Shown: positions 5,666-31,103 of the stretch, one piece after another
How the letters are laid out: the number at the start of each line of letters is the position of its first letter
Position numbering within the stretch: the first letter of the stretch is position 1
Assembly (NCBI GenBank): GCA_964017185.1
Contig: OZ024872.1
Span: forward strand, 46,214,188 to 46,278,187
Direction of reading: 5' to 3'
Origin: Rugalucina vietnamica
Taxonomy: Eukaryota; Mollusca; Bivalvia; Lucinida; Lucinidae
DNA: 64,000 nucleotides
Program-made: the position numbers and the translations under genes
Notes under the pieces: model-generated
What the model was told of the DNA's origin: nothing
Databases searched by the model: none
What the model saw: only the letters and a program-made list of their open reading frames with translations

Positions 5666-5729
5666 TGATGTACGGGGGGACATTTAGGGCCGCCACACGA
5701 CACAACACCAGCTACAGTAATAGCAAATA

Positions 5730-9146: not shown

Positions 9147-9164
9147 ATAACATAACTCAGTCTT

Positions 9165-9500
9165 AGGATTTAATAAAACACATTCGTATCTTCAGACCAT
9201 GTCCATAACACATGTAAAGTTTCAAAATAATCAAAATTAAACTGAAGGAGGAATTATATACACAAGGTACCCACTGTTCATTCAGTTGCATTGTCAAAAT
9301 GTCCAAAAAATTGCCAAGTTCAAATTGCAAAAAGGGTGGCAAACGTTAATCTGAGGATTATATCCATACCGGATGCACATCTCAAATGCATTGTCAGGAC
9401 ATCTGTTAAGTTTCAAAAGAATCGGAGGAGTTGCGCACGCAAGGTACATACTTATACTATGAGACTTAAGTTTAGCAATTTTCAATTAATTTCCAAATTG
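9165..9500 (+). mobile_element. Truncated pearl-like element, two core units
   Basis: Two units resembling the core of the element at 39386-40325: AAAATGTCCAAAAAATTG, AAGTTCAAATTG, TTAATCTGAGGATTATATCC and GGAGTTGCGCACGCAAGGTAC. The ends are missing. It lies directly behind element B. Confidence 0.6.
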
Positions 9501-10905
9501 TGAATTGATATGAAGATGAACTGAAAAAAAAACTCTTTAACCCATCAATATTTAAACCTAAAGGAACCACAATTTCCACTTTTCGCTGGAAAGCCATCTT
9601 TTCCTGATGCAATTACGTTGCGTCAAAATTTACAGGGGGTCACCTTAAAATTCACATTGTTTCTCGGCCTCTGAAAAGTTAAAGGTTTATTCCTAAAACA
9701 GTCATTTAACACCTTCTTGTGGTCAAAAAGAGTACTGTACGATGATCGTAGAGATTTGGTTACATTCTGAAATCAGGTAAGGCCCCGATGTATGACGTAA
9801 CTGACGTTGTATTGTTCCGTTGCTTTTCTACCGAAATGATCCCATACGTGTTTATTTGGTGAAATGATGTGCGACTTTGCTTTTTGTACGAGAAAACGAT
9901 CGCTAAATAGGCCTAGACGGTTTGATGTGTTCATGTCTATGCTTGCACGTTTACGTTTAACGTTGACAGGACCGGAAACCTATCGGCGATATTCACGGTG
10001 CTCGCACCACGCAGGTTGTTTCCAGTCAGCTGTTTCGATCGTAGGATTTAATAAAACAGTCAGCTGTTTCGATACAAATCCCTCTTTCCATGCCGTTAAT
10101 TATCAAGCCTGAAATTCGTAGATTGCATAGGAATCGATTACGTTACTATGACGTCAAATTGTCATTGCCCTATATCATGGTAGCCTTACGTTGTCTGGCG
10201 TCATGATGTCGGTTTTTGACGTTGTTAGCTGACGGAATGCTCTAGGAGATTTTTCGTGCTCGCGCAAGCTTAAAAGCTTCAACTGTCTTTCTTATTCTTC
10301 ATGTCTGCACCGAGCGTATTGATCTTCGTGTTACGTTGGTTTAACGTCAGGCCATAACGGCGTCCCCTGATGGAATTTTTCAAATGTCATTCCGGTTTAT
10401 TCTTAATGACACTTTAACCAATAAACAAGGCAAAAATTGATAACATGTGATGCATGTGGAATGCTGAGCACGTGATTTGCAAGATATTTTAAACGTAACG
10501 TAGCAACTGGTGGACGTAAGAAAAACACACAAACTCGTCTCGATACATGAATTTGACCATCACTTGACATTTTAAAAGCGTATCGACAGTTTTCAAATTT
10601 TTGATTTTGAAAATAATGATGGATAAAAATTGCTAAACTTAAGTCCTGTAGTATATATATGGGGATGGAAGGACGGACATGTATACGGAAGGACGGAAAC
10701 CCTCCGCTTTTCTCTGAAAAGGCGGTGGACAAAAATTGACAATCTATCAAGTTAAGCTATTAAATTACGACGGTTTCGAAATCTAGCTAAAACACAGACC
10801 TCAAAGTTCGAGCATCCTAAAAGGGGTTCAGAAATTCATATGATTGAGATACTACTAGTATTTGAAAAAAAGTCTCATCAAAATACTGATAAAAGGGGAA
10901 TTTAC
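9501..10905. other. No recognisable gene
   Basis: About 1.4 kb without a supported exon. A duplicated CAGTCAGCTGTTTCGAT string occurs at about 10023 and 10058. It may be intron of the gene that starts at 11004, but I could not find a convincing second exon. Confidence 0.4.
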
Positions 10906-11004
10906 ATCAATTGTACTCCATGACTGTGGCTTGTTCGTTGCTTCTTCCTGTTGTGCTGTGGCAATTCCAGTTATGACAAACAACCAGATGAGTTCAGTAT
11001 ACAT
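10906..11004 (-). CDS. Orphan first exon encoding a signal peptide
   Basis: ATG at 11002-11004 opens a 33-codon exon: MYTELIWLFVITGIATA, a typical secretory signal with probable cleavage after TA, followed by QQEEATNKPQSWSTID, then a GTAAAT donor at 10904-10905. The exon is phase 0 at the donor. It lies about 1.65 kb downstream of the lipocalin stop and must belong to a different minus-strand gene whose later exons should fall between 3605 and 10905; I could not identify any, and repeats may have displaced them. It could be a pseudogene remnant. Confidence 0.45.
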
Positions 11005-12478
11005 CTCTCTATTTGAAATGGCCAGTTAGTTTCAGTCGTGGTAACGTAGACTGTATATCTGTAAAATGATATGGAAGATACAAATATGAACTTCAATAAG
11101 ATGTATATTTTATTTCTATTTTTATTTCTTTTTTATTGTTTTCATATGTTTTATTCTGTTACGGGCAGATAATATAAATAACGACTAATCTTAAAGTAAA
11201 AGAAACCTCAATCACAGTCTTGATTATGGTGTGTTATTAGACAATTCAGAAATGAAATAAAGATAAAACTGAGATCCTTTAAGAGCAGTGAACATATTAA
11301 TGAGAAAGGGGATGGGCCATACCGCGGTTTCGGCTACTTAAACCTCTTCAGTGACCCTACAGGTTAGGCAACATGGAGCCAAAGTGAATTACTGTAATTT
11401 TGCATCTTTCAACAGGGTAGTCGATACAAAGACTAGTAGCAAATCGAAATGGGACCAAATATCTAAAAACGTTGGTTAGAAAATGAATCTAAACCGATAA
11501 TAATTTTGATAATTAATGCATATTTATAGCTACTTTGTAGAAAATGTTCATAAAAATTACCAATTTTTCAATTTATTCCAAAACACAAATCTGCATTTAC
11601 TGATACAATACTATAGAAGATGAGAGAGAAAGTTACCAAATGAATTCAGGTGTAGCAAGCAAATCATTAAATGTCTTTGTTGGCACAATGGACTAAAACA
11701 AAAAGAATGGTGTTGCATTTATAAGTCCTTTGTTTTTGTGAAATGAAATATCGTCTTTGATTTCTCTATTATTTGTATGTTTTGTAATTGATCATTAAAA
11801 GTGTGACCATGCAAATATATTCGAGTTACGTCAGAAGTAGGTTATCGAGTTTAATTGACACATACATGATTATGCAGAGTTAGCGGCATTTGATAGCGAG
11901 TAGGAAGAAGGCGATAAACGTTCTTCTGATCAACTATAAGACTTTATTTGGTAAAATAGTTCTTCATCACATACTGTTTTATCAACGACATTTATTTCAA
12001 TCCCATAAGCAATAATGATAGAGGGAATGGGGAATACGATTTATAAGTTCCATGAACTTACCCCAAAATAGCTGTCCAACAAAATGGCCGACAAATATGT
12101 AATGATATAGTCTTCAAAAATATATTGTCGCGGATGCGACATGCGTCATATTCGGATTTTTTTTTTCGTCGACGTTTGTCTCATGTGCAAACGAAATATA
12201 GCTTTGTGGTGTTCCTTCTAAGCATATACGAGCTTTTTTTTTAAAATGAGCGCTGTTTTTATACGATGTCCATCACACGCGTGTCTATGTACTTTGTTCT
12301 AGGACTAGTTCTCCGCTTTAAAACTGTATGTTGGTCCTTTGCCTGTATGCTCTTAACGTTTATATAGCGATGAAACTTTTACACTCGTAAAGAAAAAAAA
12401 AACAACAAAACATGTATCAAATCAGGGTATCTCATTTATCATCCGGATACATATGAATACAACATAATTGCATGTTGC
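11005..12478. other. Intergenic, with one repeat R1 copy
   Basis: R1 copy at 11266-11530. Otherwise AT-rich DNA with no supported exon. Confidence 0.5.
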
Positions 12479-12484
12479 TTTATT
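12479..12484 (-). terminator. Candidate poly(A) signal AATAAA of the lipocalin gene
   Basis: TTTATT on the plus strand reads AATAAA on the minus strand, about 172 nt downstream of the TGA at 12656-12658. Position is suitable; no transcript evidence. Confidence 0.4.
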
Positions 12485-12655
12485 CTACAACTAATACTTG
12501 TTTCACTATGATCTTTTTGAACAGCATTTCGTCTCATAGTAAAAATGTTATCACGGTGTAAAAAGAAATGCTATCTTTTCTGTTCTGCAATATTTCTCCA
12601 GAATTCGCAAATCCAGCTTGGAACCCAATTGTCCAAAACTGCTCATCGAACAGAG

Positions 12656-12922
12656 TCATACAGCAGAGAGAATAACTGTCAACAGTATTAAAACACTAGA
12701 TGCTGAGAAAAGGATGCCTGTAAATAGACACAAAAAATAATAAATAAATTTGTTGAACAATATTTGGTAAATAAAGGAACAAATTATAAAGAGATAAAAT
12801 GTATATCGCCTAGGAAAAATAGGCTCCGAGTAAACATAAAAATAATGGACATAATACTAATATAATAGGAAGGACGTAGACAAAAAGATAGAAAATATGC
12901 TTACCTTTGCTGGTTGGACATT
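12656..12922 (-). other. Linker micro-exon and GPI-signal exon ending the lipocalin gene
   Basis: An 18-nt micro-exon (12905-12922, ECPTSK) joins in phase 1 to a final exon (12656-12717) encoding GILFSASSVLILLTVILSAV-stop. A short small-residue region followed by about 14 hydrophobic residues at the very C-terminus is the pattern of a GPI-attachment signal; the anchored residue is probably in the SK-G region. GPI-anchored lipocalins are known (grasshopper Lazarillo). Confidence 0.7.
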
Positions 12923-15900
12923 CTGAAAATTTGAGTGAAATATAAGTCAATACGATCGATGCATAACAGACGTTTTACAACGTCTGTCGTTCCTCAAACC
13001 CGACTACTAGTAGACCCCTCCTGAGACTTAATACATGTATAAATAAAATGATCTACACTGAAAAAAAGTTATAAGAGGCCACCTTATATTTTTCTTCTAG
13101 TTCAGAAAGTAAAATACGATCAATTAAAATTCATGATCATATGAATAAACCAATGTCTAACAATGGCTCTGTGAGTTTCTGCATTCCAAAATGCGTGATA
13201 CTTCTCACACAGACGAAGCATGTGTAAAGGTACCCTATTTCAAAAAGTCACACTTTATTAACATCAAATTAAATGTCCTATTATGACGTTGTGTTTTTAC
13301 ATTTTAATTTATTTGAAAGTGCTACTGGACTGCCATGATGCAAGATAAAATTAAGTCAAAAGTGTTGCTGCAATAAGAATCTTCGTTTCTGTTTTGTACA
13401 TGCAAGAAGACAACAACCTGAATAACAGGAATTCAGCTTTTGTATGCAATTTGCATACCAACTTTGTTCTTCTCCAGTTGCGTTATTATCAGCAGCACGG
13501 CATTGAAATTTTCAGCGATTATTTAGATTAAATACTAGACTCTGATAAATTTTGAAAATTAAAAAAATCGTCCACAAATTTTGTTATTTTGTTCGTTAAA
13601 AATTGGCAATGAAACCGGAAGTGTGCGGCAGCCTTGACCTGTTGGTCCTCGAAAATGGTCTCAAACAGTTCAGTCGAGCTATATCTCTCATTTCCAGGCC
13701 TCATCAAGTGAATTTAACAGGGGTCAACATGTTTAAGAGGCACATTTATGAATTTTCCAAAAAATCTCAAAATTTGCGATTTTTAAAAATGCATAAAAAT
13801 TCTACCAGTAGAGAAAATTTGAATGTTGAATGTTTTTCCGAGCCGTAACGACCCCTTTGATGACACCCATTCCTAATTTCAATAAATGGTGTGCTGTATC
13901 CAATTTTTTATTTAAAAACATTGATTTTTGCATTATTACTCCAAAAACGCCTTTAGTAAAAGAAAATTATTTCTTAACACTTTGGAACTTTACTTACTTG
14001 AAAAACACGTCTTTTGGCAAAAAATCGTGCAATTTTGAACATGGCTTAGAAACAAAAAATAAGTTTGAAAAGTGGCCTCTTATAACTTTTTTTCAGTATA
14101 TATAGGAATTGACATTTTGATTATTGCTTTTCAACAAGAGGTTCAATGTAGCTTAAAACAGATGAACGTACATGTGTATTTCTATCAACACACTTTTTCT
14201 TCAATACGGTAACATCTATGTTCTTTCTTTTTATCATGGACATTCGATTAAGATACTAACTATCCCGAAAAAAATGACCTCTAACATTTCCAGTGTTAGT
14301 TGCCACGAATACGTTACTTATACAAAAAGCGCAAACTATATGCGAGTGATCCATTAGAGTTTTTTGGACATACCATGTCAAAACAAAATTATGTCAAAGT
14401 GTATCACCTACACTCTCTACGAGGTCCAACAAAAGGATTACCATGAGTATGATCTACGTTGACGAGATCGTCAAGATTCAGACACAGCCCAATGACAGTC
14501 TTTCTAGCATCAACATAAGCTTCTGATTCAAGAGACAGCGTCCGGGTCCAAAGAGTGACACTAGGTTTGCTGCATTTTGAACTCGAGTCTTGGCTAAGAC
14601 AACTGTATTCGACATAATAGGATGAGTAGTCGGTACCCATGACGTAGGATTCTTGCTGGACAATTCCTACAATGGAATTTCACCTGGTGAGTTTGACAGC
14701 TTATCAATGTTTTTTACACATTGAAATTTATTTCTTATCATTCTACTATGATATATAAACAGATTTGACGAATCGTCAATTTTATAAGATCTTACAAACA
14801 AATTATAATCAAAGGTTTGAGGAAGGCTTAAACATCTCAAAGATAATTCAGTTCTTAATAATAAGTTTCTGGCGTTCTTTTACCAGCTGATGCTGTTCGT
14901 GTGGTCAGTAGTTTCCCAGTAGTCTCAGGTTGATGGATCACAATCTTTTCAGTCTTGCACTGACCATTCTCGTTTTTATATCTAGAAATGTATAATTAAA
15001 GATTCAACACGAATGTTGCAACAATAGAGTTGCAAATATGTGTCATAACATAGGGCGGTACGTAAATACATCGTGGGCAGATGAAACTTGAGTGCAAGGT
15101 AAACGCTATCAGGAGAGAGTAAATATCCAAGGCGTATGACTTAACCGAATGCAAACGATGAATGCACGTAGCAGTTTGTGATTTTGGGGGTTCATCACTG
15201 ACTTTTTTCTATAAATGATGCATTCTTACCTGACAGTCGTATCTGCAGATTGTGTCTTATTGTCTGGTTGGCCAATGTCAATGACGTAGTTGGTGGTCTT
15301 CTCTGATTGGTTGGTTGTAAAAACACTCTTTTTATACCAACGTCCTTGCAGCTAGAATAAAGCGACTTGCATTTTAATAGCATTTTCATTACACTTTCCT
15401 TTAATAAAATTCTAAAGGGTGGATCAAGATTTCTTACTTGCCATTTGTGTTGCAATTGCATGTCAAGGGTAGTGATGAATTGACTGTTTACATTGGCAAA
15501 GATTTTTTTACACCAATTAGCTATTGTGCCTACATTTTGATTTGTGCCCCGGACAGTGACGGTAGTACAGAAGAAAACAATATCTGCGAAGGATCCACGT
15601 TTCTGGACGAAATGGTTCTAGGTGGCAGTTTTGATAATATATTTTGCCTGTACATGTACACATTAAACATCAATGTCATGAGACGCGTACTTTTTTCCTT
15701 TTACCTTTTTACTCCATACGATCTATTTCAGCAAACATTTCTTTATCAAACGTTGAAAATCAACATAAATTGTCAGGGATCCAGTTCATCAAGTTACAAT
15801 CAGCAAAATAGACTGATCAACACGCAAGAATTAACTGATAATATAATATGGATTAGGACTTACCCTCGATAAATCCAAGTTTTCTACAGCCATCTGTTTT

Positions 15901-18900
15901 ATCGAAGGGACCGTACAATCTATATCATATTAGAGACATGAAACCACACCGACCATTCGGAGTAAATGTTGTGAAAAATGTTTTAAACTGCAACTTGAAA
16001 AGGAATGTACAAGTACGATGTGCTTGAAACGGATGCACTGTTTACAGAGTAGTAATCCAAACACGTTCGTTGCGATATATCCAAAGAAAAGTTTCAGGGA
16101 ACTTTTTCATATGTTCTCTCATTGAAATTGCTTCATGCAGTGGTTTAAAATATAGTAAATGGGCATTGTATTGTTTGGATTTCGGGCCAGCTACTATAGA
16201 TGATTATTAACTTATTTTCAGAAATCAAAATACAAGGTATTGTAAGTAACTTATACATTGAAATATGTGTAACAAGGACATACCTCTGTCTTTTGGACAT
16301 TCTGAAAAAAAAAATGGTTTTGTTTAGGCACGCACAAAGTCGCATAATATCTAAGGATGCTTGTAGATGCATTATCATCATGATCACGATGTCACTGAAA
16401 ACGCCCTTTCAGCACGGCGTGATTATGTATTTAAAACTGCTCTCCCATATACCGAATTTCCCTTGCGAATGCCCTTCCGAATGCAATTTTGAGCAAATTC
16501 GCATTAATCGCTAGAAATTCGGAAGCATTCGGTAGCATTTGTAAGCATTCGGAAGCATTCGGTGAAAATTTCAAGTCGTTGCGAAAATTAGGAACATGCT
16601 CCTAAAAATCGCAAGGAAATCATATTCTTAACATATTCGTAAAGAATTCGTAAACAATTCGGATTGGTTGCAAGACATTTGTAACACTCGCAAGCCATTT
16701 GCAAGGATTCGGTAGCATTAAATTCTATTGAGTTTTGATGTCCGTAAAGAATCACTAGTGAATCGCAACATTTTCACATTCAAGACTCAGTCTTTAGCAT
16801 AATTTATTTATTCTGGCCCATCCTTCAAGTAAAGGCCATAATTTAAGGTATTTAGCCTTAAGCTATCCGTCAATGTATGACAGACAAACTAAAGCCCCGT
16901 GAAATATTTGTTTGCCCAGTAAAATTGTCTTTTTATTGTCACGGTGTACATCGCAATTTGAGAGAAACAACAAAGTGGTGTGCGTTTCAAGAGAAGACTT
17001 GGATCAATAATTAAATATTTTTTCCATGCCCCTTCGCATTGTGGGTGGTTTCATTTTACATTGATATTATTGGCTACAATGTTTGCGAATGAGTAAAAAA
17101 TGAAAAGAATTCGGCAAGCATTCGCTACACATTCGCTTCATTTGTAAGGTGTTTGCAAGACTTTCGTATTATTTGTAACGGCATTTGTAAGCGTTCGGAA
17201 CATTCGTAAGGCATTTTCAAGAATTCGGTAGTGTGGATGGCAATCAATCGCATTATTCTTAAGACATTTGTAAGGATCCGTAAGCATTCTTAACGCTTTC
17301 GCAAAGACATCGTTTTGTACAAGCCCCGCCCCGTCCATTCGCATCATATTCGATAATTTCAGCGCGAATTTCAAATTTTAGCATTCGCAAGGGATATTCG
17401 GTATATGGGAGAGCAGCATAAACATCCCTGATCTTTTCACATTTGATTCATTGCATCTATGAAATTTCTGTTACTCCCTGAACCAAGTTCAAGAAACTTT
17501 GGCTCGTAATTTGTACTCCCACCGACGGATTATAGTCTACATTGTATATGATACACTTATTTCTCTCAATTTGTGACTTTTTAGCATTATTTATTTACCA
17601 GTTGTTTGTTGTGTAGGCAAATACATTGTCGTATTAACACACAAAATTGTCTTCACATTTTCAACTTCAGCAGCTGCAGACGCAGATAATGTTGGAAATC
17701 TACTCCAGATCCACGAGTCTGCGTAGTTGCATCTTCCGGTCTTGTCTAATTCACGACAACCGTAAATCACAGCATAGTTGTCGTAATCTGTCTTCATCAC
17801 CCAGTAATCCGATGTGTAGATATCTGGAATATATAAGCTTTCTTCCGCCAATCATAGTTATTTTGGCAATGTGGTGGCTTTGAACATTAAATGTATTCAT
17901 TTACATATCGTGTCATCGTGAAGTTTCATACATCATGTCGGTGTAGAGCGGGTTAGGGTATTTCCGAACAGCTAAGGCATAATTTCCGTAAAAACTGAAA
18001 ACAAGACGAGTCTAGCCTTACTTTGTGCCAAATGACAGAAAATCCAATGCCGAACATTAGCGGCATATCGCGGATGGTTAAATCATTTACCCCTTCCGAT
18101 CACGTGACATTAAGTTACATGACCATCGCCGGGTATTTCCGAACGGGCCGGGTCAACCGGACGAATGCGTCGTCTAATTCCGAACAACTGTATATTTTTA
18201 AACGATAAACATGAAGATGGAATTATAATTGAGTTGAAACGATATTTTATGTTGTATCTTAACGATTTTAATGTAAAAGACAATATAATACCCAGAGATG
18301 CGTAACGCGGGTTTGTGACAGCAGTCTTTAGTGTAATGCTTTAGTATTTAGGAACCCATGATAACCCGGAAAATGTCGTAATTTTTATCAGCATTCTAAC
18401 CGTTTACTTAGTCTCTCCAAGAGATTGATATTAATTCATTTGGCAATGAAACGCGAAAGATCAAGTCCCTTTCCAGGTTCCGACTCGAATTCGTCAAAAC
18501 ATACACACACTTAGTGACAACGGCAAGAGTCGTCCGGAATTAGACGGCTGATCAATTTTGGACAGTGTATTTCCGAACGGTTGACGATAACAATAACTAT
18601 AGGTCATAAGTGATGGTTGTAAATTGGAATCAAGAATTCATTTATTTCGTGAGCCGATAATGCATAGTATACTTGGATTTTTTTCAATGTGCAGGGCAGG
18701 GCTTTAGCTAAGCCCAGCCTTGGATGATTTCATTGTTGAGAAAGGGTCCCATAGCTGACAATGTATAATTGAGGTAAATGTGACAATGCTTGTTGTCTTT
18801 GTGCTATACCTGTGTCTCACCTGAATGATTTCAAAATATGTGAAGTGTATGGTAGACACACAAAAACATAAATATAACCATACAGCCCATACGCTACACT

Positions 18901-21900
18901 CAAATATTTCTATCAAGTTAGCCAATGCACCTATCTTTGTCAACAACTCTTTGCTTTACTGATGGTACATGACCGCAGTAGAAGGTCAATAAAGTACCAT
19001 TCGAAAAAAAAAAATAAAGCGATTCAGAGAACCAGCTGATTTTACTTATTTTTCCTACAAGGTAAGGTCAAATTAGCAGCAAATTTGCTGCATCAAAAAC
19101 AGTCAAGTTAGCAGCAATTTTACTGCAGCAAAGTCATGTTACATGTAGCAGCAATTTTGCTGCAGCAAAAGCAGTCAAGTTAACGGCGATTTTGCTTGCA
19201 GCGTTGGAATTAAATTTGCTGCAGCAAAATAGAAAATACAGTCAAGTTAGCGGATTTTGCTGCAGCGAAATTGGTCGTTAGCAGCTATTTTGCCACAGCA
19301 AAAAACAGTCAAGTAAACCTAGTATCTTTCTGGCATGCGAATTTCTCGCGACTGTTTTGCGAATTTTGTCGCAGACTTTCGCACGACATTCGTGCGAGTG
19401 TCGTGAGAATTTTCTTGTGTCGCGAACTGGTCGCGAAGTTTTTCAACATGTTGAAAAATTTTATGCGAATTTTTTCTCCAAAATATTTCGCAAGACTGTC
19501 GCGCGACTGTCGTGCGACGGTCGCGCGACGTTCGTGCGAGTGTCGCGAACTTGTCGCCGCGAAATTTTGGCGAATTTACAATGCGAAATTTTCGCGACAC
19601 TCGAACGAATGTCGCACGACGGTCGCGCGACAGTCTTGCGAAAACCTCGCGACTATCTGGCGAGAAAATAAAATTAAGCGACATTCGTACGAATGTCGCG
19701 CGACACTCGCACGAATGTAGCGCGACTGTCGTACGAATTTGAATTAAAATAAGTTACATTCGCGGGAAAGTCGTGAGACACTCTCACGAATGTCGCGCGA
19801 CTGTCGTGCGACAGTCGCGCGACTATCGCGGGACAGTCGCGCGATATATTTTCAAAATTAGACCGAAAGTCGCGATTTTGTCGCATAAATGTCTATTCAA
19901 TGAGACTGCAACGTGAAAGTTGTGTTTATATCGTTTATCTTTGTCGCGAAATAGTCGCGAACTATTTGCGAACTAGTCTCTAGTTGTCGCATTCCAGTGA
20001 GATAGGGGCTTTAGCAGCAATTTTGCTTGCAGCGAACAGTTTTGTAGCAGATTGTTTTTGGCTTTAATCTAGGTGATAGCGCATAAGAAAATGACAATTA
20101 ATGACACAATCACATCCATTCAACGTCACCTACAACCAACGTTCAACAAAAAGTTCCATGTAAGTGGAAATATTTGTCGCCTTTTTTATTATTACATTTT
20201 TTTCCGTCTGGCTGTCATCGCTATGTAGAAAATGATAATGAATGCTGCAACAGAACTTTTTACCAACGTTATGGAACATACAGTTTCGTCTGGCTGTGAG
20301 CGCTATAGGAAACGAATACTTATGCCGTTCTATCCCACCCAGCAGCAGTAAAAGTGTCCATAGACTGGGAAATAGGTGGGTTATAAAATGTCTGTTTGTG
20401 ATGACATTCATCGTTTCTTATATATGTATGCGCTCATAGACAGACTTAAACGAAAACGAGAGACCAAATTGTGCTGTAGCTCACCTTAGTGATTTGCTTA
20501 TCAGTGTAAGCTTCAAGATAGACGATAATACTCTGGAGCCTTGTCTGTATGGACCCCATGGGCACAATATTGACAGTATTTATAAAGAGGAGTACTATAC
20601 ACTAATTTGCACTAAATATGAAAGTTATGGGCCTTGCAGTTTAGAAAACTTTATTTTTTTCAATCTAATGCAATCATTCCCCCATTTCAATGATGCTTCA
20701 GATAAAATTTGATCGAGTTGTCGACGATAATTTTCCTCTTTTAATGATGACAGGGAACTTTTGTCTGTAACTCGGGTAATACGATAATACTCTGGAGCCT
20801 TGTCTGTATGGACCCCATGGGCACAATTGACAGTATTTATAAAGAGGAGTACTATACACTAATTTGCACTAAATATGAAAGTTATGGGCCTTGCAGTTTA
20901 GAAAACTTTTTTTTTCAATCTAATGCAATCATTCCCCCATTTCAATGATGCTTCAGATAAAATTTGATCGAGTTGTCGACGATAATTTTCCTCTTTTAAT
21001 GATGACAGGGAACTTTTGTCTGTAACTCGGGTAATAGGAGGGATAGAAAAGGTTGTTTGTGGATATTTAAACAAAATCAATAGGTGACAAAAAGTTCTAA
21101 CTTGACCGTTTATTCCTATCTTTTTTTCTGTTGCTGCTGCTGCAGCAACAGATTCGCTGATAACTTGACTGAGCTGTCAGTCAAATTTAACAAATCTGTA
21201 GTATGACAGCACAACACTTTACAGATCCATACTGTGACTTCCAGTAAGAAGTTAGTGCACTTTTTTGCCGCCTTCATTAGTTTAATGTAAGCCTGCATCT
21301 TTGATATTTATTTGTATCAGAATTTAAGTTTTAAACAGAGAGTCATACAACAAGAATGTTTACCAGGCATTTACTAAGGGAATTTTCAATATGGTCATAC
21401 ATAAATACAGTCCTGTAGTACAGAATATTTTTCTGTGACAGTATGTGTTTACCCATCATTTTCGGTGCATGAGGTTAACTTTTGACACTGATTGGTTCAA
21501 CAATAACAAGTGGTCAAAGTATTAGTCCAAGTGAGAACTACCTATTTTTAAATGTAATGGTCAACTTTGTCATTGTCAATCAAAAATTGACAGGCTCCGC
21601 CCTGCACATTGAAAAAAATCAGACTATACATTGGATAACAACTCTGGGCATCAGAACGAGAGCTTAAGCCCAATGACAAGTGGCCTTGTGCACTCGCACA
21701 AGGCGGATGCGCGGTCGTTACTAACACATTTTAAATTAAATTTAAAATATAACCACTGCATGTAGCAGCAGCCAATGCAATGCAGGGGGAACATGAAGGA
21801 ACTAAACAAATATCATATGCAAAGAAAAGTCGGTTGAAGCAAACGTTGAACTAAGACAAGGGCTTTATAAAATCGTTCGGAAATTACCGGCGTTCGGAAA

Positions 21901-24900
21901 TAGACGGACCCGCTCTAGGTCTGCCGTTTTTCAAAGTTTAACGTGTTTCAATATAACGTACTTCTTTGTGTACATGGCAGTCAAAACAATAATAAAGATT
22001 AAAAAAAACGAAGTACTATCAATCTTAAAAACGATCACCTGAATATCAAGAATTACTTTTCCAGCGACTACTTTCGATCAAATTACTATTTTATTATATT
22101 AACAGATTGGCCAAGCAGTTTAGAGAAGGTTTATGAACAAAGGCCCGAGACTGGGCATATTTAGCTATTTTTTCTTGTAAGACTTGCGGCTCAGGTGAGC
22201 TAAAACGCTAGAGGCACATTAAGCAATAAAACAAAATTTAAATTTAAACAGAGATCCTTTAAGAGTAGTGAACACATTAATGAGAAAGGGTATGGGCCAT
22301 ACCGCGGTTTCGACTATTAAAGTCTCGTCAGTGACCCTTTAGATTTGGCAACATGAAGCCAAAGAGAATTACTGAAATTTTGCAACTTGCAACAGGGTAG
22401 TCGATTAAAAGACTAGTATTATCTAAATGGGACCAAATATATTAAACCTTGGTAAGAAAATTAATCTTAACCGATAATAAATTTCTGATTTCTCAGAATA
22501 TCCTCCCTGATCTCAAAGGACCAAAAAGAAAATATAACCTGCACTATGGATGATAAAAGTTACTTACACGTTGTATTTATGTTCCTCCGGTAGAGAAATT
22601 TCCCCGGTGTCGTCGTGGTTATTAATTGTCCTTGGTTGTAGAAACATTTCGTTAAATCTGCGGGGTCCCTGCATAACAACAACGAAAACACAGTTTTATA
22701 GATTTTGTAAAATAATTTCAAGCTAAAACTACTTTTAAAACATGTACCGTCTGTGACACAGGCATTGTATACCGGTATATTATCAATATTTTCATATACA
22801 TTGTATATCAACATGTGATTTATAATTTCTGTACGCTTTTGCTTAAGGTTCACAAATTGGTCTATTCGTTCGTTTAACGCACTGGCATATTTACAGTGGC
22901 GACTTGTCGCTTAGTTTCATTCCTGACTGAACTATATCGATTCCATTCTTATTACTTTGTAATATTTGGATTTTCACAAGTCCTTTTTTTTTCAATCCTC
23001 CGGGATTGCCATTGCAATATTATATTTCTCAGAGATTTTAAATTTAGTTACATCAATTCCTGACCTTTTAATTTTTACTTTTCAAATAAAGAAAAGCTAA
23101 ATACCTTCCACGAATGAAGCCCGTGAGAATGGTTTCATCACTGTTTATGTCATAGACGTGTTGATAATCCTGGAACAGGTATTCTGCTGGGATAAAACTC
23201 TGTGGGAGCCAAGCTATTTCATACCATTTACCGGCATACTGAAAAATAATGCTGGGATAAAACTCTGTGGGAGCCAAGCTATTTCATACCACTTACCGGC
23301 ATACTGAAAAATACTGCTGGGATAAAACTCTGTGGGAGCCAAGCTATTTCATACCACTTACCGGCATACTGAAAAATACTGCTGGGATAAAACTCTGAGG
23401 AAGCCAAGCTATTTCATACCATTTACCGGCATACTGAAAAATACTGCTGGGATAAAACTCTGTGGGAGCCAAGCTATTTCATACCACTTACCGGCATACT
23501 GAAAAATACTGCTGGGATAAAACTCTGTGGAAGCCAAGGTATTTCATACCACTTACCGGCATACTGAAAAATAATGCTGGGATAAAACTCTGTGGAAGCC
23601 AAGCTATTTCATACCACTTACCGGCATACTGAAAAATAATGCTGGGATAAAACTCTGTGGAAGCCAAGCTATTTCATACCACTTACCGGCATACTGAAAA
23701 ATACTGCTGTGATAAAACTCTGTGGGAGCCAAGCTATTTCATACCACTTACCGGCATACTGAAAAATAATGCTGGGATAAAACTCTGTGGAAGCCAAGCT
23801 ATTTCATACCACTTACCGGCATACTGAAAAATACTGCTGGGATAAAACTCTGTGGGAGCCAAGCTATTTCATACCACTTACCGGCATACTGAAAAATAAT
23901 GCTGGGATAAAACTCTGTGGAAGCCAAGCTATTTCATACCACTTACCGGCATACTGAAAAATAATGCTGGGATAAAACTCTGTGGAAGCCAAGCTATTTC
24001 ATACCATTTACCGGCATACTGAAAAATAATGCTGGGATAAAACTCTGTGGGAGCCAAGCTATTTCATACCACTTACCGGCATACTGAAAAATAATGCTGG
24101 GATAAAACTCTGTGGGAGCCAAGCTATTTCATACCACTTACCGGCATACTGAAAAATAATGCTGGGATAAAACTCTGTGGGAGCCAAGCTATTTCATACC
24201 ACTTACCCGCATACTGAAAAATACTATGCTGGACAAACTATCCGAGTGATGTGGTAAATGGAGATTAATAACAATGAACAGTGACAAAACAAAAATCATA
24301 CATTTTCGTCCATTATCGCAACCTCGGTGCAATTTTAACTTTACATGTGGTAACATCGAGTTGGACTTGACTGATAGATTTTTGGATTCAAGAAAACCTT
24401 GACATGATATGGCTTATGATGTATATACAAAACTATATCAATCACTTGTAGAACCTGTACTTTTCTACTGCGCCGGTATCTGGGGATTAACGGGCTTTTC
24501 TAAAGTAAAAACGGTGCAAAATAAAGCTTGTAAATACTTTCTGGGAATGGCTCAAAATGCATCTAGAGAGCTGTCGCTTATATTGTAAGCTTACAAATAC
24601 TGCGGACAATATAAAATCAATATTTAAATGGTCGAAATCCCACGGCAAGTGCTGGGAGAAACGTTTTATGGACTTTGTGGGTGATGCTGGTTTAGCGAAT
24701 TTGTTTGAGACTGAATCTGTTAATACCGAATATGTTATTAAACAGTGTAAGTCTAAATTAATTGAAATGGACAGAATTAAATGGCATTCTGACATGTTTA
24801 ATGATACTGGACTTGTTAACGGCAATAAACTACGAACTTACAGGATATATAAGACTACTCTAGAACCAGAAGTGTATGTTAAAAACTTTCTTATCAGGGA

Positions 24901-27900
24901 TCATCGCCGCGTTTTGGCTATGTTCCGATGTGGTAATTTGCCCTTGTACATAGAAACTGGGCGTTATGCTAGACCAAAAATACCTCTAAATGAACGTACA
25001 GGCTTTCATTGCAAAGATGTTGTTGAAAATGAGATACATTTTCTCCTTGAAAGTCCCTTTTATGATGATCTGCGTAGAAAGTTGTTTAAAAATGCAAATT
25101 TATGTAATTCGGACTTTGACGCTCTTAATTTTACATATAAATTTATATTCTTAATGAACAATATAAATATACAGCCTCTTGTTGCAAACACTTTATTTGA
25201 CATGTAGCAAAGAAGAAAACGAGTATTATAAACATTTTAAGAATATGTTTTTTTTTTAAGGTTTTAAGTATTGTGAGATTTTACATATGCATAAAATTTA
25301 CATGTATTAAGCAATATTTGAAATGTTGTGTTGTTTTATATCATGTTTTATATGCTTTGTACAGACATGTGACACGTTAATAAACTGTTTACTTACTTAC
25401 TTACAGTTACTTACTTACTTACTGAAAAATACTGCTGGGATAAAACTCTGAGGAGGCCAAGCTATTTCATACCACTTACCGGCATACTGAAAAATACTGA
25501 AAGCGTTAGATGTGATCCTAAACGAGGAACCACCGCGCTTGGTACATGTATATATACTCCTCAAAAGAAGTTTTCCACCACTTAGATTTTTTTAAAAAAA
25601 TATTTTTAAGTGATATTTTGACTAACAAATTTTAAACCTACTTTTTTGAATTTGCACAGTCTGAATGAGTTTGATAAAGTGTGTGATAAGACCAAAAATG
25701 ACACATCTACACAGGTAAATGGTGTAGCTAGAGCAGAACAATCGGAACTGCCTCGTCCAATGAAAGATCAGATCTTTGATTGAGCAAGGAGTTGCGATTG
25801 GAAGCTAGTCTAAGGCAGACAAATACCAATAAGGCCACGAAGGTAAATAAACCCCCTTGGCACATCATTACGAAAACTTGCCCATGCAATATATAGAAAT
25901 TTTTTGGTTGTAAAAATGAAAATTTTCACTGTAAAATTTTTGATATTTTTCTTTATTTTTGCTCAAAACATAGATTGTGGGTACACGTTAGAACCGCCTC
26001 TGCGAGGCGGTTCTAACGAGTGCACCCAATCTATGTTTTGGAGCAAAAATAAGAAAAATAGGTATACCCCTGCATACCCCAGTTTTTCTATATGAAAGGG
26101 TATACATTACATGGACATGTTTTCCTGATGTTATAGTAGAATGTATTAGATTCTTCGGTATGTGAACACAAATTTTCAAGCGGCGGGGTATAAAAGGAGC
26201 CTTAATAAAGACTTACTCGTCGAATGTCGAAATTCTTTTGTCTTCGACTGTCAATTGAGTAGATCGTACATTCTGGAATTTAAGTAAATTAATTAATGAA
26301 AACAGATTTTGACAACGCCCCTTTCTCTGGGAAAAGTTCAGGCTTGAAGTGTAAATACATATGTATTTAGCACTTAAAGTAAATATCCACTTCTAGTCAG
26401 AACTTTGAACAAATCACGTAAAAAACAGGGGTACTGTCCAAATAACACATTTGAGAAAAGGCTACATGATGCTCCAAGGAAATATAATGAATTTTCAATA
26501 TGTAGTCGGGTCATTCATAAATGAGCCTGTGCATGAGAAAACCAACAATTAGGGTTCCGACCACGTCCGACACAAACCGGCCTGTGCAGCTATAGAAGAT
26601 GGCTAGAAGCTTGAAATTTCGGATTTAGGAAGAAGAGAGATTGTACTACTGTATCTGTATCTGTGTCAGTTACTGCACAGCTGATCTGCGCCTTTGTTTT
26701 GCCTATGCTTTGTTTTCGCCTATGCAGATTGTTGGTTTTCCCATGCGTCGGCTCAAATTGCAACGAATACATGCATTACTATGTGCACATGCACACTATA
26801 CGAGAAGCTTATGCACTAGGAAAGACAAATATGTCTAAGCTAACCGCGAAGCTGATCAGCGCCTGTGTTTTCGCTACACGGATAGTACAATTCCTCTGCT
26901 TTCTCAATCCAAAATTTCCAGCCTCCAACCATCTTCTATGACTGTACAGCTCGGTTTGTGTCGGACCTGTCAGAAATCCAAAATGTTGGTTTTCTCACGC
27001 ACATGCTCATTATTAAAAAGAATCTGACTTACCCTCATGCTCCGTGCATTCTGAAAGACACAGAAAATAAAAACTAAAGATAACAAGCAGCCTAATCATT
27101 TCGAGCATTTCATAAATTAAGGCAAACTTTAAGATGCACATTCAGTTGTTGTCAAGTTGTTGTACAGTTGTACAGTGCGCCTCGTCTCAAGTCAACGAAT
27201 CTTTGGTATTTCGGTATTTATACGTAACTTGGATAATGCACATACTAACATGTAATGACAAAATTTAAGCTTGTGAATTAAATATTTTTGTCAAAACATC
27301 ACCCTTTACAAACTGAGTTAGACAATGAACATATTCAAATGTACGCATCTAGGTTCATGCTTGACAAGAGCTAGGAATCATTGAGATAATGGCGAAATTT
27401 TACGAAATTACGAAAACATGCCCACCATGCCCATGCAATATACAGTGATTTTTAAAGTTGTAAAAAATGAAAAAATTCAGAAGAAAATTTATGATATTTT
27501 TTCTTATTTTTGCTCAAAACATAGATTGTGGGTACACGTTAGAACCGCCTCGTCGAGGCGGTTCTAACGAGTACCAACAATCTATGGAGCAAAAATAAGA
27601 AAAATAGGTATACCCCTGCATACCCAGTTTTGCTATATAAAAGTGGGGTTTAAGAGGTAATACATTACACGGACATGAATCATTGAGATAATGGCCGAGC
27701 TCACCATCTGTCTGATCCGTCTCCAAGAACGCCGACTTGTTGACGCACAGTGTACGAAGAACGTCATCAACGATCATTGCCTGTCCGGCATGTAATAATC
27801 CGGCCGGTGTCCGAGTCCAGACCCACACCATAGGTTCGGCACAACCGCCGGTCGGTCCCTGTTTCTGACAGCCGTACACTACAGAATAGCTTGTATAGTC

Positions 27901-30900
27901 CGTGCTGATTATCCAATAGTCTGTAGTTCTGCCGCCTGCAAAAGACTGGTAATGATTAACCCATATTTGACGAATGGATTCTCCCATCATTACCATTAGG
28001 GCGAGTCCACTTTCATTTTAGGGGTCTTAGGAATGATTTTACTTTTTATCTCATTTTTCGATGAAATTCCTCCAAGCAAACAGAATAGCCCCAGATGGGA
28101 CGCCGCGTTCTGCGGCGTCACATCTGGGGCTATGCTGTTTGACTATGTCTCATAAAAGGGACGCCAGGCTTAAATGAGTTAATATGCCCATAGAACATAA
28201 TTTTGATTTTACGACTGTAAAGACGAAATTTTGTGCAAACGTGTCTAACGTAACATTTTTTTTTTTTTTTTTTTTTTTTTCAAATGAAAATTACACGTTC
28301 ATACACGTACATGTATTTCTTTATTTAGGAGTTCTTTTTTCGAGTAGTGAGTTTCGAGTAAAAAAAAGTGAGTTTGGAGTAACAAAAGTGAGTTTCGAGT
28401 TTAAAAGAAAGTGAGTTTCGAGTAACAAAGTGAGTTACTAGTTTCTGGAAAAAAGTGAGTTTCGAGTTAAAAAAAAGATTTTTTCAACTCGAAACTCACT
28501 TTTCTTACCAGAAACTCGAAACTCAATTTTTTAATTAGAAACTCGCTTTTCTTACTCGCTACTCGGAGTACAATTCCTCTTCTTCCTAAATCCGAATTTT
28601 CAAGTTTCTAGCTATCTTCTGTGACGGTATAAGACGGTTTGTGTCAGACCTGGTCGGATCCCAAATTGTTGGTTTTCCCACGTACATGCTCATTTTAGGT
28701 ACACATGTAGACAATGTTTAAAGAAAAGGCAAGAAAAAACGTCGATAAGCATTTGTCATAGAAGTCATAATCATTGGCCCATGGTTACAAATCATATTCA
28801 TGAGTGCAATAATAAGAATGACCCCTACCTCGAATGTGTTGCCATTTTCCTGGAACTTCGGTCGTTTTGATGTGCTCCGTATAATGAAAGCACTTGCTCA
28901 GGTCCGGTGGATCCCTGAAACAAATGGGAAGAAAATGTTGCGCTCGTCAAACTTAACTGTCGAGTTTCTAGGAATTAAAAATTAATGTAACTGTTTTTGT
29001 TGAATTGCGTTTTCGCTTTTAAGTATATAAGCATATGTTTGAGAGATGTTTGAACAGATCTACTGCTTCTGCAGTGGCAGGACGTGTTCATGGTGACACA
29101 ATACAGCGAGTCTAACCCTCTACTACAGAGCTACCGTAATCTATGCTTTTTGTTTGTTTGTTTGTTTGTTTGAATTGATGCTTTACGTCCAAGTCAACAG
29201 CAATGGTCATGTCGGGACGTTGTCTTCATTTTATGGGACTTTTACCCAACACCATGATGTCATGACACTCAAGATGTGCTTCATAAATATAACCACCCAA
29301 CTAAGCCAAATAATGAATGGATGGTTTGACTAAACCACTTTTCCTGGGCAGGCTCAGACACGAGCATTTAACCAGTAATTAGATGGTCGGTCTGTCAACT
29401 AGAAGCTTTGCCTGGAGTCACAAGCAGCCCATCTATTTCTCCTATGCACCAGTCATTTGTATCCCCGGCTCCCCCGGGGCCGGGGATAGCGGGGACATAG
29501 CGGGGCTAAGTGACTGGCTTTAACCTCTGATGTGTCCCGGCAGTGCCGGGGATTTGCCGGGGTTATGATTTCCCGCCAATACACTGTCACATTAATTCAA
29601 ATTAGATTTTAATGATATTTTTAACATTTAATTATCTTTATGGTACTTATTTAATTTCCAAATGCACCCAAACATTTACATGCATAAAATGAGGCCCTTC
29701 TCCCATGTTTCAGTTTCATCAGAACAACTCCCAGCTGTTGTTCCACGTTATTGTCAGCCCCTGGGGAGCCGGGGCTTTTAGCAGGGGTTTTACCAAAACT
29801 CTTGCCCGGCCCCGGGGGAGCCGGGGATGCAAATGACTGGTGCACTAGGCTCAAATGGCCGGGCGCCCATATAATCTATGCGTTTTCTATTATGATCTAT
29901 GTCCAAGTTTTCTTGATTTATTCACTCGGCATGCATTATTTCGCAAAATGATTGTGCGGCAACATTTTACAAAATGATTGTAATATTAACAACACTCCTT
30001 CACCTGCCAGTTACAAACGCGGTGATCGTGGTTCCATCTGGATGCAGGTAATACGTCTTGGTAAAATCTTGTGAGATTGGCACGTCGGAATGATCAGGGG
30101 CGGGTAGCCATATCTGCTCATACCATCTCACGCCAACATACTACAAAGTAACACAGCATCAACGATAATAATTAGCAAATATCTTGTGAAATTTCGCTAT
30201 TGTTGTTTAAATAGCGTACAAGTCTGTCTACGGTCACGTCATTTTTGCTGACTTCTTTCCAAAAACACGGGATGGCACAGCTTCAATTGCTTATATTTAT
30301 ATTATGGCTTGCCTAAATTGTTTATACAGTCGTGTTAGGTCCTACATAATCAAGCTGATCGTGACAGTAGTTTTTACTTGATGATCTACATAATCATTAA
30401 AATTGTCACCGTGGGAAAATAGCATATAACGGCGAAGTAGCCTATATTGGGGAAGACTGAGAAAATTGATGTTGACAGCAAAGAATATTAACATCTTTGA
30501 CTCGAGGCTCAACGACCATTGGAGCGTTTTAATGCTATCTTGGTGTTCGATTTGATGGTTCAAACTTATCGGTCCTACTATTGTTTGTAGGACAAGCATA
30601 ACCGATCGTGGGATCAGCCTTTCGTCCCATGTATGAAACGGTGTGTCTTCGCAAGCCAAGGGTACTAATCAGGGGTTAGTATCTCGAAGACATCGTAAGT
30701 TAACCTGTTAACGACATACTTACGATGGACTTAAGATGACCACCTTAAAATTTACGCACTTGCTATTCCAGTTAAAGCTGTCGTAACTTTTTTGAAATGA
30801 ATAAGATAAGTTGGCCACTGATTCTACATCCATGGTCCGCGCAAGTCATTTAACCTAAACTAGCAAGCCTTGTGATGAATGAAACTAGTTCGGATGGTGG

Positions 30901-31103
30901 CGTTGGTTTTTACCTTTATATGTTTGAAAGCACGGTTTTATTTCTGTACCTATATAAACAAGTGATAACAAAATTTTAAAGAATCTACCCACCTTCGTAA
31001 TGTCGAAGTTTGGCTGGACCGTAATATCCGAAACACTGCAACTTGTAGACACCGACTGCAATCCAGCTACGAATATGAACACAACAAACAGGGCTCTCCT
31101 CAT
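12656..31103 (-). CDS. Three-domain lipocalin, secreted and predicted GPI-anchored (17 exons, 587 aa)
   Basis: Exons in coding order: 30993-31103, 30004-30140, 28829-28914, 27705-27935, 27034-27051, 26217-26272, 23105-23238, 22568-22668, 17599-17823, 16284-16301, 15864-15893, 15438-15529, 15230-15351, 14884-14981, 14442-14666, 12905-12922, 12656-12717. They sum to 1764 nt with every junction in frame. The product starts with a signal peptide (MRRALFVVFIFVAGLQ), carries three lipocalin domains each with a G-x-W segment (GVRWYE, GKWYE, GRWYK), a T-D-Y ... Y ... C segment (TDYTSYSVVYGC, TDYDNYAVIYGC, TDYSSYYVEYSC) and a conserved W-[TS]-R, and ends in ILFSASSVLILLTVILSAV-stop, a GPI-type tail. 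Exon phases repeat across the three domains, and domains 2 and 3 have no start codon or signal exon of their own, which argues for one gene. Lipocalins bind small hydrophobic ligands outside the cell; the ligand here is unknown. The acceptor of the 15438-15529 exon is uncertain (15520 keeps frame too). Confidence 0.82.
13054..14103. mobile_element. TIR element of about 1.05 kb in the last-but-one lipocalin intron
   Basis: Inverted repeats CACTGAAAAAAAGTTATAAG (from 13056) and the matching CTTATAACTTTTTTTCAGTA (to 14099) extend through GAGGCCAC, about 28 bp with one mismatch. The TA next to each end suggests a TA target duplication. Internal ORFs (13603-13848, 13830-14105) are short and unrelated to known transposases as far as I can tell. 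Confidence 0.75.
14442..15529 (-). other. Lipocalin domain 3 (exons 12-15), the most diverged
   Basis: Exon 15438-15529 gives a degenerate N-terminus (ANWCKKIFANVNSQF...HKWQ). Exon 15230-15351 has LQGRWYKKSVFTTNQ. Exon 14884-14981 has GQCKTEKIVIHQPETTGK. Exon 14442-14666 has YVMGTDYSSYYVEYSC and LWTRTLSLES and is 225 nt, exactly the length of the matching exon in domain 2. If the donor at 14440-14441 were skipped, a stop follows at 14404, which could give a shorter form lacking the GPI tail. Confidence 0.75.
16437..17416. mobile_element. TIR element filled with ATTCG-type degenerate repeats (lipocalin intron 9)
   Basis: Near-perfect inverted ends of about 37 bp: CTGCTCTCCCATATACCGAA at 16437 and its complement ending at 17416, extending inward through CCCTTGCGAATGC. 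The interior is dominated by variants of GCATTCGGAAGC and ATTCGCAAG, split by an unrelated AT-rich block (about 16790-17090). No coding capacity. The pattern resembles the element at 19323-20004. Confidence 0.8.
19050..19316. repeat. GCAGCAAATTTGCTGCAG-type short palindromic repeats
   Basis: About five imperfect units of roughly 45-50 bp, each with TTAGCAGCAATTTTGCTGCAGCAAAA and AGTCAAG spacers (motifs abbreviated: GCAGCAATTTTGCTGC core). Each unit is itself a palindrome. Confidence 0.7.
19323..20004. mobile_element. CpG-rich element of degenerate TCGCGCGACTGTCGTGCGA-type palindromes
   Basis: Some 680 bp made almost entirely of variants of GCGACATTCGTGCGAGTGTC in both orientations. Weak inverted ends (TATCTTTCTGGCATGCGA at 19323 and TATCTCACTGGAATGCGA read from 20004) suggest an element boundary. 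CpG content is far above the surroundings. The many ORFs read through it in several frames on both strands are translations of the repeat. Confidence 0.65.
20467..21040 (+). repeat. Pearl-like 5' end with a 259-bp tandem duplication
   Basis: A TAGCTCACCTTAG end (20478) is followed by two nearly identical 259-bp units (20522-20780 and 20781-about 21035) differing by small indels, so the duplication is recent. A matching 3' end, GGCTCAGGTGAGCTAAAA, occurs at about 22188-22205 but other sequence intervenes. Confidence 0.65.
22236..22556 (+). repeat. Dispersed repeat R1, longest clean copy
   Basis: Contains GAGATCCTTTAAGAGTAGTG, GGTTTCGACT, CAACAGGGTAGTCGA and CTGCACTATGGATGAT. It ends 11 bp from the donor of lipocalin exon 8 (22568). 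Confidence 0.6.
23186..24228 (-). repeat. 65-bp tandem array containing the 5' part of a lipocalin exon and its splice acceptor
   Basis: Sixteen head-to-tail units start at 65-bp steps from 23186 to 24161, with a seventeenth relic at 25433-25495 beyond a LINE insertion. On the minus strand each unit reads TATTTTTCAG then TATGCCGGTAAGTGGTATGA and on to ATCCCAGCA: the acceptor plus about 54 nt of exon 7 (23105-23238). The unit next to the true exon has GTAAATGG where most copies have GTAAGTGG, so most copies carry a consensus 5' splice site 7 nt after the acceptor. Units differ by only a few substitutions. 65 is not a multiple of 3, and reading through units meets stops, so the array is intronic. 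Confidence 0.92.
24229..25428 (+). mobile_element. 5'-truncated LINE (non-LTR retrotransposon) fragment inserted in the 65-bp array
   Basis: Encodes the C-terminal part of a LINE reverse-transcriptase polyprotein: LYQSLVEPVLFYCAGIWGL, then VQNKACKYFLGMAQ, then after a frameshift near 24560 an open frame to 25207 with LRTYRIYKTTLEPEVYVK, FRCGNLPLYIETGRY and ENEIHFLLESPFYDDLR (the usual Cys/His-type C-terminal motif, with cysteines partly lost). It ends with ACTTACTT simple repeats, a LINE-style 3' tail. Array units flank it on both sides, so it inserted after the array formed. Missing 5' part and the frameshift make it dead. Confidence 0.85.
25866..26130 (+). mobile_element. Hairpin MITE-2 (CATTACGAAAAC ends), copy
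   Basis: Ends CATTACGAAAACTTGCCC and GGACATGTTTTCCTGATG. The central hairpin has arms of about 40 nt (TTTTGCTCAAAACATAGATT ... GTTAGAACCGCC / GGCGGTTCTAAC). Other copies: 27394-27677, 31798-32068 and 59354-59623 (the last two in the opposite orientation), with a partial copy at 38101-38217. Length about 270 bp; no coding. Confidence 0.8.
26522..27010 (+). mobile_element. MITE-3 copy plus a second partial copy
   Basis: A full copy spans 26522-26755 (TGAGCC...GGCTCA). A second copy lacking its left part follows to about 27010, ending CTCACGCACATGCTCA about 20 bp before the donor of lipocalin exon 5. Confidence 0.7.
27394..27677 (+). mobile_element. Hairpin MITE-2 copy flanked by an 18-bp direct repeat
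   Basis: Same element as 25866-26130. It is flanked by AATCATTGAGATAATGGC at 27376-27393 and 27678-27695. The right repeat ends only about 8 bp from the donor of lipocalin exon 4 (27703-27704). The direct repeat is unusually long for a DNA-transposon target duplication. Confidence 0.75.
27956..28182 (-). mobile_element. MITE-1 copy adjacent to the acceptor of lipocalin exon 4
   Basis: Reads TTAACCCATATTTGACG at the left and AAATGAGTTAA at the right. The left end lies 18 bp upstream of the acceptor AG of exon 4 (27936-27937), so it borders the pyrimidine tract and branch region. Confidence 0.8.
28258..28280. repeat. Poly(T) tract
   Basis: More than 20 consecutive T in lipocalin intron 3; could be the tail of an old minus-strand retro-insertion. 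Confidence 0.9.
28338..28566. repeat. Fold-back array of GTGAGTTTCGAGT and its complement
   Basis: About five copies of GTGAGTTTCGAGT separated by A-rich spacers run up to about 28460, then about four copies of ACTCGAAACTCAC run on to 28566. The two halves can form a long hairpin centred near 28476. Nothing coding. Confidence 0.85.
29150..29400 (-). mobile_element. SINE-like repeat (pair with 35048-35345)
   Basis: Contains TTGATGCTTTACGTCCAAGT, GTCATGTCGGGACG, TTTATGGGACTTT and AACCAGTAATTAGATGGT. The copy at 35048-35345 is in the opposite orientation and ends CGTAAAGCAAAAAAAA. The A-rich tail next to the shared end suggests a retroposed element. Confidence 0.5.
29455..29844. mobile_element. 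GC-rich TIR element with CTA target duplication
   Basis: Inverted ends of about 40 bp: TGCACCAGTCATTTGTATCC (29455) and GGATGCAAATGACTGGTGCA (29844), extending inward through CCGGCTCCCCCGGGGCCGGG. CTA flanks both sides (29452-29454 and 29845-29847). A 3-bp target duplication would fit a PIF/Harbinger-type MITE. It stands out by GC content in lipocalin intron 2. Confidence 0.8.

Follow-up and report, generated by a model that had tools for sequence, protein, structure and literature searches.

Can one bivalve gene place three lipocalin domains on a single, surface-held polypeptide? The question is raised by a minus-strand gene at positions 31103 to 12656 of a stretch of Rugalucina vietnamica DNA, here called the window (the whole 64,000 nucleotides (nt) analysed). 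The initial annotation had read this region as one gene for three tandem lipocalin domains with one signal peptide and one glycosylphosphatidylinositol (GPI) tail. We rebuilt the exon chain, and the single gene region and its three domains were upheld, with Pfam PF00061 matching the whole product in three stretches (8.8e-23, 81.5 bits). The product is laid out as one signal peptide, lipocalin domains D1, D2 and D3, and one hydrophobic C-terminal tail. Judged from its sequence, this is probably a polycalin-like gene for one secreted, GPI-held chain of three RBP4-type barrels, each of which would take a hydrophobic ligand.

The rebuilt model comprises 16 exons, 1,698 coding nt and 565 amino acids (Table 1), in place of the 17 exons and 587 residues first proposed. 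Exon borders were chosen by reading and donors were scored with a crude matrix, on which they range from 1.5 to 7.3; all 15 introns have GT-AG ends, at sites picked by hand. The joined 1,698 nt form one open frame, whereas the two alternative frames contain 27 and 32 stops. GC content is 45% in exons and 37% in introns, and an in-frame stop lies nine codons 5′ of the exon 1 ATG. The signal peptide in exon 1 is approximately MRRALFVVFIFVAGLQSVSTS, with its cleavage site placed by eye. The entry to the third domain had been put at 15864-15893, but a start at 15893 breaks the frame into the next exon, and we corrected this exon to 15919-15864 (56 nt). Between exons 11 and 12, a candidate exon at 15647-15534 was rejected because it meets a stop in the frame handed on by exon 11. 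No further lipocalin exons in the 64-kb window passed the inclusion threshold beyond the gene itself and copies of a minisatellite in intron 6, in a search that took in 1,689 stop-to-stop frames of at least 25 amino acids and that smaller exons could escape.

Table 1 Coordinates of the three-domain lipocalin gene, associated features of the window and the paralogue on contig C13
Feature	Position	Strand	Description
Exon 1	30993..31103	-	111 nt; signal peptide and D1 N-terminal segment with first Cys; ends in phase 0
Exon 2	30004..30140	-	137 nt, phase 0-2; D1, G-V-R-W variant of the lipocalin motif
Exon 3	28829..28914	-	86 nt, phase 2-1; D1 middle, Cys aligned to RBP4 C70
Exon 4	27705..27935	-	231 nt, phase 1-1; D1 TDY / GC..GC / W-T-R / LC
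Exon 5, microexon	27033..27050	-	18 nt, phase 1-1; D1 sixth Cys and linker (ECTEHE)
Exon 6	26217..26272	-	56 nt, phase 1-0; D2 N-terminal segment without signal peptide
Exon 7	23105..23238	-	134 nt, phase 0-2; D2 G-K-W; first part is the last 65-bp minisatellite unit
Exon 8	22568..22668	-	101 nt, phase 2-1; D2 middle
Exon 9	17599..17823	-	225 nt, phase 1-1; D2 TDY / GC..RC / W-S-R / LC
Exon 10, microexon	16284..16301	-	18 nt, phase 1-1; D2 sixth Cys and linker (ECPKDR)
Exon 11	15864..15919	-	56 nt, phase 1-0; D3 N-terminal segment
Exon 12	15230..15351	-	122 nt, phase 0-2; D3 G-R-W
Exon 13	14884..14981	-	98 nt, phase 2-1; D3 middle
Exon 14	14442..14666	-	225 nt, phase 1-1; D3 TDY / SC..KC / W-T-R / LC
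Exon 15, microexon	12905..12922	-	18 nt, phase 1-1; D3 sixth Cys (ECPTSK)
Exon 16	12656..12717	-	62 nt; hydrophobic C-terminal tail GILFSASSVLILLTVILSAV-stop, candidate GPI signal
Candidate poly(A) signal AATAAA	12479..12484	-	3′ of stop codon
Candidate alternative first exon	27033..27141	-	in-frame ATGs 27141, 27108, 27099; signal-peptide-like open reading frame into microexon 5
65-bp minisatellite	23185..24232	-	16.1 copies, 97% matches; intron 6 acceptor and start of exon 7
C13 paralogue	L038:745-4363		one intron only

The exons are organized as a repeated five-exon module, with lengths of 111/137/86/231/18 nt in D1, 56/134/101/225/18 in D2 and 56/122/98/225/18 in D3. Phases are identical between repeats (1-0-2-1-1-1 for the D2 and D3 units), and the domain-internal series 0-2-1-1 described in the initial annotation is indeed seen three times. 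Each domain closes with an 18-nt, phase 1-1 microexon, and all three microexons start with E-C. Since a D2 or D3 unit, taken from its N-terminal exon to its microexon, begins and ends in phase 1, copies could be added with the frame intact. D1 and D2 are 41.6% identical (3.6e-43), compared with 27.4% for D1-D3 and 27.8% for D2-D3, which makes D3 the most divergent domain. Taken singly against PF00061 (cut-off 23 bits), D2 (42.1 bits) and D3 (32.4 bits) pass, and D1 (22.3 bits) falls just under. Hallmarks of the lipocalin family are G-x-W, T-D-Y and an Arg in the last motif. TDY and the last-motif Arg are present in all three domains, as annotated, but G-x-W occurs only in D2 and D3; D1 has an extra residue in this motif (G-V-R-W), and so does the first domain of the paralogue described below (G-I-T-W). 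The closing Cys of a domain is separated from the opening Cys of its neighbour by just five residues at both junctions (Cys 190 and 196; Cys 368 and 374), so the barrels must sit close together. The product contains five N-glycosylation motifs.

The earlier claim that several lipocalin domains share a single chain is well supported by a paralogue in which one exon crosses a D1-D2-type junction, and which is the strongest evidence for one polypeptide. Searched against the species' own genome assembly (1.09 Gb, 47 contigs), the protein gave 33 matches out of 37 candidates. One strong match lay beyond the window, on contig C13 (6.8e-55), along with weak matches on contigs C9 and C14. The first exon of the C13 gene (108 nt) encodes a signal peptide and CNVADIPVQPHFDIKR and ends in a phase 0 donor, GTAAGT. 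Its second exon runs uninterrupted for 360 codons and a stop, encoding two lipocalin domains and a hydrophobic tail; the TAG inside the match is the intron acceptor immediately before this large exon. The exon crosses the equivalent of the microexon 5/exon 6 boundary without gaps and with the same spacing (QTNPCPIDKDCAIYTID, versus QTDECTEHEECTIYSID at the D1-D2 junction of the window gene). Its first domain, C13A, is nearest to D1 (36.5%) and its second, C13B, to D2 (32.7%, versus 20.4% for D3). Pfam finds two PF00061 stretches in the C13 protein, and no more domains were found around the gene (C13:46580600-46608400) in frames of at least 18 amino acids. Most simply, the intact exon would derive from a spliced two-domain mRNA, the later introns having been lost thereby.

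Of the weak matches, the C14 lipocalin has ApoD as its best match (78.1 bits versus 24.1 for RBP4). On C9, four of the five exons examined stop a few residues after N-C-P, and the fifth (L040) lacks N-C-P. The genes on both contigs look single-domain and ApoD-type. On C9 (L039-L042, C9:25.23-25.29 Mb), ApoD-type lipocalin exons occur at five places and on both strands, which looks like a cluster of single-domain genes. Among bacterial and archaeal genomes, 30 stretches fitted a pattern and none was confirmed.

In their cysteines the domains follow RBP4 (retinol-binding protein 4), which carries vitamin A in vertebrates. The protein has 18 cysteines, exactly six per domain, and in a multiple alignment of five domains (D1-D3 and the two of the C13 paralogue) five of the six align in every domain with RBP4 C4, C70, C120, C129 and C160. 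The sixth, which the microexon supplies, follows the C160 equivalent at a distance of 15 residues, about where C174 of RBP4 is expected; C174 is 14 residues beyond C160 and outside the aligned stretch. We infer that the cysteines are paired as in RBP4. The third disulfide, C120-C129, is called a distinct feature of RBP4 in PMC8420045, which describes APOM as sharing the three-bridge pattern. Equivalents of both residues are present in all five domains; ApoD and the C14 lipocalin have the first only, and AMBP has neither. In sequence searches of the PDB, RBP4 was the best match of D1 (40.7 bits) and of D2 (54.5 bits), and a three-domain profile placed RBP4 first (83.3 bits, versus 56.1 for sandercyanin and 49.7 for ApoD). 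Human RBP4 has an intron after c.111 (c.111+1), that is, after codon 37 in phase 0 (PMC3506607); exon 1 of the window gene is likewise 111 nt long and ends in phase 0. Both introns fall at the same aligned residue when the RBP4 signal peptide is taken as 18 residues (PMC3506607 gives 1-16).

A tree was built from 10 of 13 aligned rows, leaving out the sandercyanin fragment and two C9 fragments. Human ApoD and the C14 lipocalin grouped together at 100/100 with the seven RBP-type rows across that branch, and a split between the ApoD type and the remaining lipocalins is supported. RBP4 was not united with the five domains (34/68); AMBP, which was not counted, joined RBP4 weakly. Only one of the seven inner branches was starred, several very long branches were flagged, and equally good clustering came from 41 of 500 label shuffles. 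The tree would thus leave RBP4 orthology of the domains short of proof. At positions that line the retinol pocket of RBP4, residues are hydrophobic or small at 12 of 17 in D1, 12 of 18 in D2 and 9 of 17 in D3, compared with 15 of 18 in RBP4 and 9 of 17 in AMBP. The RBP4 retinol contacts on this list are not kept in D1-D3, where few are identical and several are charged; retinol is therefore not specifically predicted as a ligand, and we do not file the protein as RBP4.

Several observations weigh against one anchored chain of three RBP4-type barrels. Nine of the 15 donors score below 5, two of them only 1.5 and 1.8. D3 has AMBP as its best PDB match (27.6 bits versus 25.6 for RBP4), and the pocket positions are charged at 3 of 17 in D1, 4 of 18 in D2 and 4 of 17 in D3, versus 1 of 18 in RBP4 (7 of 17 in AMBP). 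The C13 paralogue holds two domains, which leaves the repeated module as the evidence for the join between D2 and D3. If the exon 9 donor is read through, the frame closes two codons later, and an AATAAA stands at 17595; a transcript could therefore end after D2. When signal-peptide exons were scanned for, one candidate internal first exon, phase-compatible with exon 6, turned up before D2. The candidate GPI signal was judged by eye. The short spacer between the candidate omega site (the S of SKG) and the hydrophobic run would suit a single polypeptide that is secreted or transmembrane-held instead of GPI-anchored. We regard this as rather improbable, given that the tail ECPTSKGILFSASSVLILLTVILSAV, which is the only one and sits in the last exon as initially described, terminates within its hydrophobic run and leaves zero cytoplasmic residues, and that the C13 paralogue tail PCPDQAPSKGAVIQKGLTMLLIMILVVI has the same layout, with SKG common to both. 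The tail fits a GPI signal with attachment at S or G. Decay of the gene, with splicing at the exon 7 acceptor spoiled by the minisatellite and a full product no longer made, seems very unlikely: all 16 upstream copies starting TATGC after AG do hit a stop if read straight on in the exon frame, but the last copy retains the same acceptor, and the exons have GT-AG borders and join into a single open frame. Each upstream copy would offer a stop-leading acceptor, and copy number could affect splicing.

The internal first exon bears on two further alternatives. With two promoters, the three-domain chain from 31103 would be accompanied by a D2-D3-tail chain from an internal first exon fused to microexon 5. 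Signal exons had been reported absent before D2 and D3, and before D3 none was found at a donor score of at least 5 or at least 1.5 (scores reached by 6 and 14 of the 15 true donors, by the script's count; controls at 1.5 gave one match in intron 8 and two in window positions 1-12655). Directly 5′ of microexon 5, however, the three in-frame ATGs read MIRLLVIFSFYFLCLS into ECTEHE with a donor score of 6.6, and a TATA-like TATAAATA, of which the minus strand of the 64 kb has five, lies upstream at 27222. Such an extension is seen at one of the 15 acceptors of the gene; the 403 pyrimidine-rich AGs of the two strands have 6 in phase 1, of which 4 are as strong as the candidate. It arose in 1.7% of 5,000 shuffles that kept the last 8 nt and in 1.9% of those that kept the last 24, but in 32% of 5,000 when the last 40 were kept, because the T-rich acceptor tract alone reads as hydrophobic residues. 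As the resulting product would also have an odd, extra Cys (ECTEHEEC...), and the homologous segment of the C13 paralogue is internal to one exon, we consider a second promoter unlikely. It is harder still to believe that D1 belongs to one gene and D2-D3 to its neighbour, so that the chain over intron 5 would be a joining artefact. The candidate first exon would serve such a D2-D3 gene, and weak phase-1 acceptors in intron 5 lead to short hydrophobic ends; yet microexon 5 has the length, phase and E-C start of microexons 10 and 15 and supplies the sixth Cys of D1, and the C13 paralogue spans the same junction in one exon. Poly(A)-type motifs occur in the gene's introns (AATAAA, n = 18; ATTAAA, n = 15), and neither motif is present in intron 5 or intron 10. 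Terminal exons for D1 alone (intron 5) or D2 alone (intron 10) were sought, with only weak candidates.

For the single anchored three-domain chain, we propose an origin in a single-domain RBP4-type lipocalin gene that would have grown by tandem duplication of the phase-symmetric five-exon module (phases 1-0-2-1-1-1), each added module opening with a Cys exon and each domain closing with the 18-nt microexon that gives the sixth Cys. A single mRNA would then be translated into one chain of signal peptide, D1, D2, D3 and C-terminal tail, which would be secreted and kept on the cell surface by GPI. There, three closely packed barrels may each hold a small hydrophobic molecule, offering at most three ligand sites per anchor. 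On an epithelium of gut or mantle, such a chain could carry or sequester pigments, lipids or compounds from the diet; mantle epithelium is a candidate site because PMC10543319 places oyster rbp4b in the mantle. By analogy with polycalin, its function would most likely be that of a surface-held multivalent carrier or sink for small hydrophobic molecules.

GPI-anchored single lipocalins exist, and the initial annotation took one of them, Lazarillo, as the parallel for an anchored multi-domain form that it considered unusual. Lazarillo and ApoD-type proteins have the lipocalin fold in common with the window product, but ApoD, unlike the window domains, lacks Cys at RBP4 positions 70, 129 and 160. 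The architecture is not new, as there is a closer parallel in the lepidopteran midgut polycalin: its single chain likewise has tandem lipocalin domains together with a signal peptide and a predicted GPI site. Se-polycalin, for example, has 1,113 residues, a signal peptide and a GPI-anchoring site (PMC5220377). Polycalin has many domains, whereas the window gene has three, of RBP4-type with six Cys, in a bivalve; compared by description, the array likely arose independently of the lepidopteran one. RBP4 itself is alike in the profile match, in the five aligned Cys including the C120-C129 pair and in a first intron after nt 111 in phase 0, but it is a single-domain soluble plasma protein, and the three-domain window product does not keep its retinol contacts. 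Oyster rbp4b, which can be likened to the window gene by description only, is a bivalve shell matrix protein with a lipocalin domain, a signal peptide and mantle expression (PMC10543319). A review of molluscan endocrinology includes RBP4 in one of its figures (PMC12965858). Yeast Svf1 resembles the window product in carrying several lipocalin domains per chain, in its case two, but is not a secreted anchored array; it is described in PMC10583516 as a potential ceramide carrier from the endoplasmic reticulum to the cis-Golgi. Among the literature matches listed, no multi-domain lipocalin of a mollusc was noticed, which does not prove its absence from print. New are the RBP4-type domain chemistry outside vertebrates and, probably, the phylum; the bivalve genome also bears ApoD-type single-domain lipocalins.

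A published scenario derives RBP4 from an APOD-like ancestor in early chordates (PMC8420045). Should common descent account for the Cys pattern and the shared first intron, that origin needs an earlier date. It is conceivable, although we lean somewhat towards doubt, that lipocalins of the RBP4 type, third disulfide and first intron included, predate the protostome-deuterostome split and that the GPI-held multi-barrels of bivalves are a second invention of polycalin. The window gene would extend the tandem anchored lipocalin design beyond moths and tie it to a different domain type. Its exon module shows how such an array can grow, by a phase-symmetric five-exon unit whose last microexon bears both the closing Cys and the linker.

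Other features of the window and the assembly were recorded. Ahead of exon 7, in the repeat-rich intron 6, lies a second signal-peptide-exon match (24299-24207), whose use would bypass the N-terminal Cys exon. An insertion at about 24232-25420 ends in (TAAG)n, seems to be a mobile element and parts one array copy (25486) from the others; its 232-amino-acid plus-strand frame had no Pfam match at E 0.01. A SART-1 C-terminal exon lies at 36620-37012 on the minus strand (PF03343, 4.8e-29), and a frame at 56535-56987 resembles the SART-1 N-terminus by eye. A 315-bp tandem array at 49689-51235 (4.9 copies, 95%) overlaps a 366-amino-acid open frame. Molluscan haemocyanin, sought as a taxon marker, gave no match, and neither did any control. 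The mitochondrial contig, C47, has 30,680 bases, which is large for an animal, and carries COX1 with nine TGA codons; its size, the COX1 sequence and the repeats look bivalve by judgement. The code of this COX1 is that of invertebrate mitochondria, which rules out vertebrates and disagrees with the echinoderm code but would, taken alone, still allow amphioxus: AAA stands at the Lys of GVKVFSW, ATA at Met positions, and AGG and AGA at conserved Ser positions.

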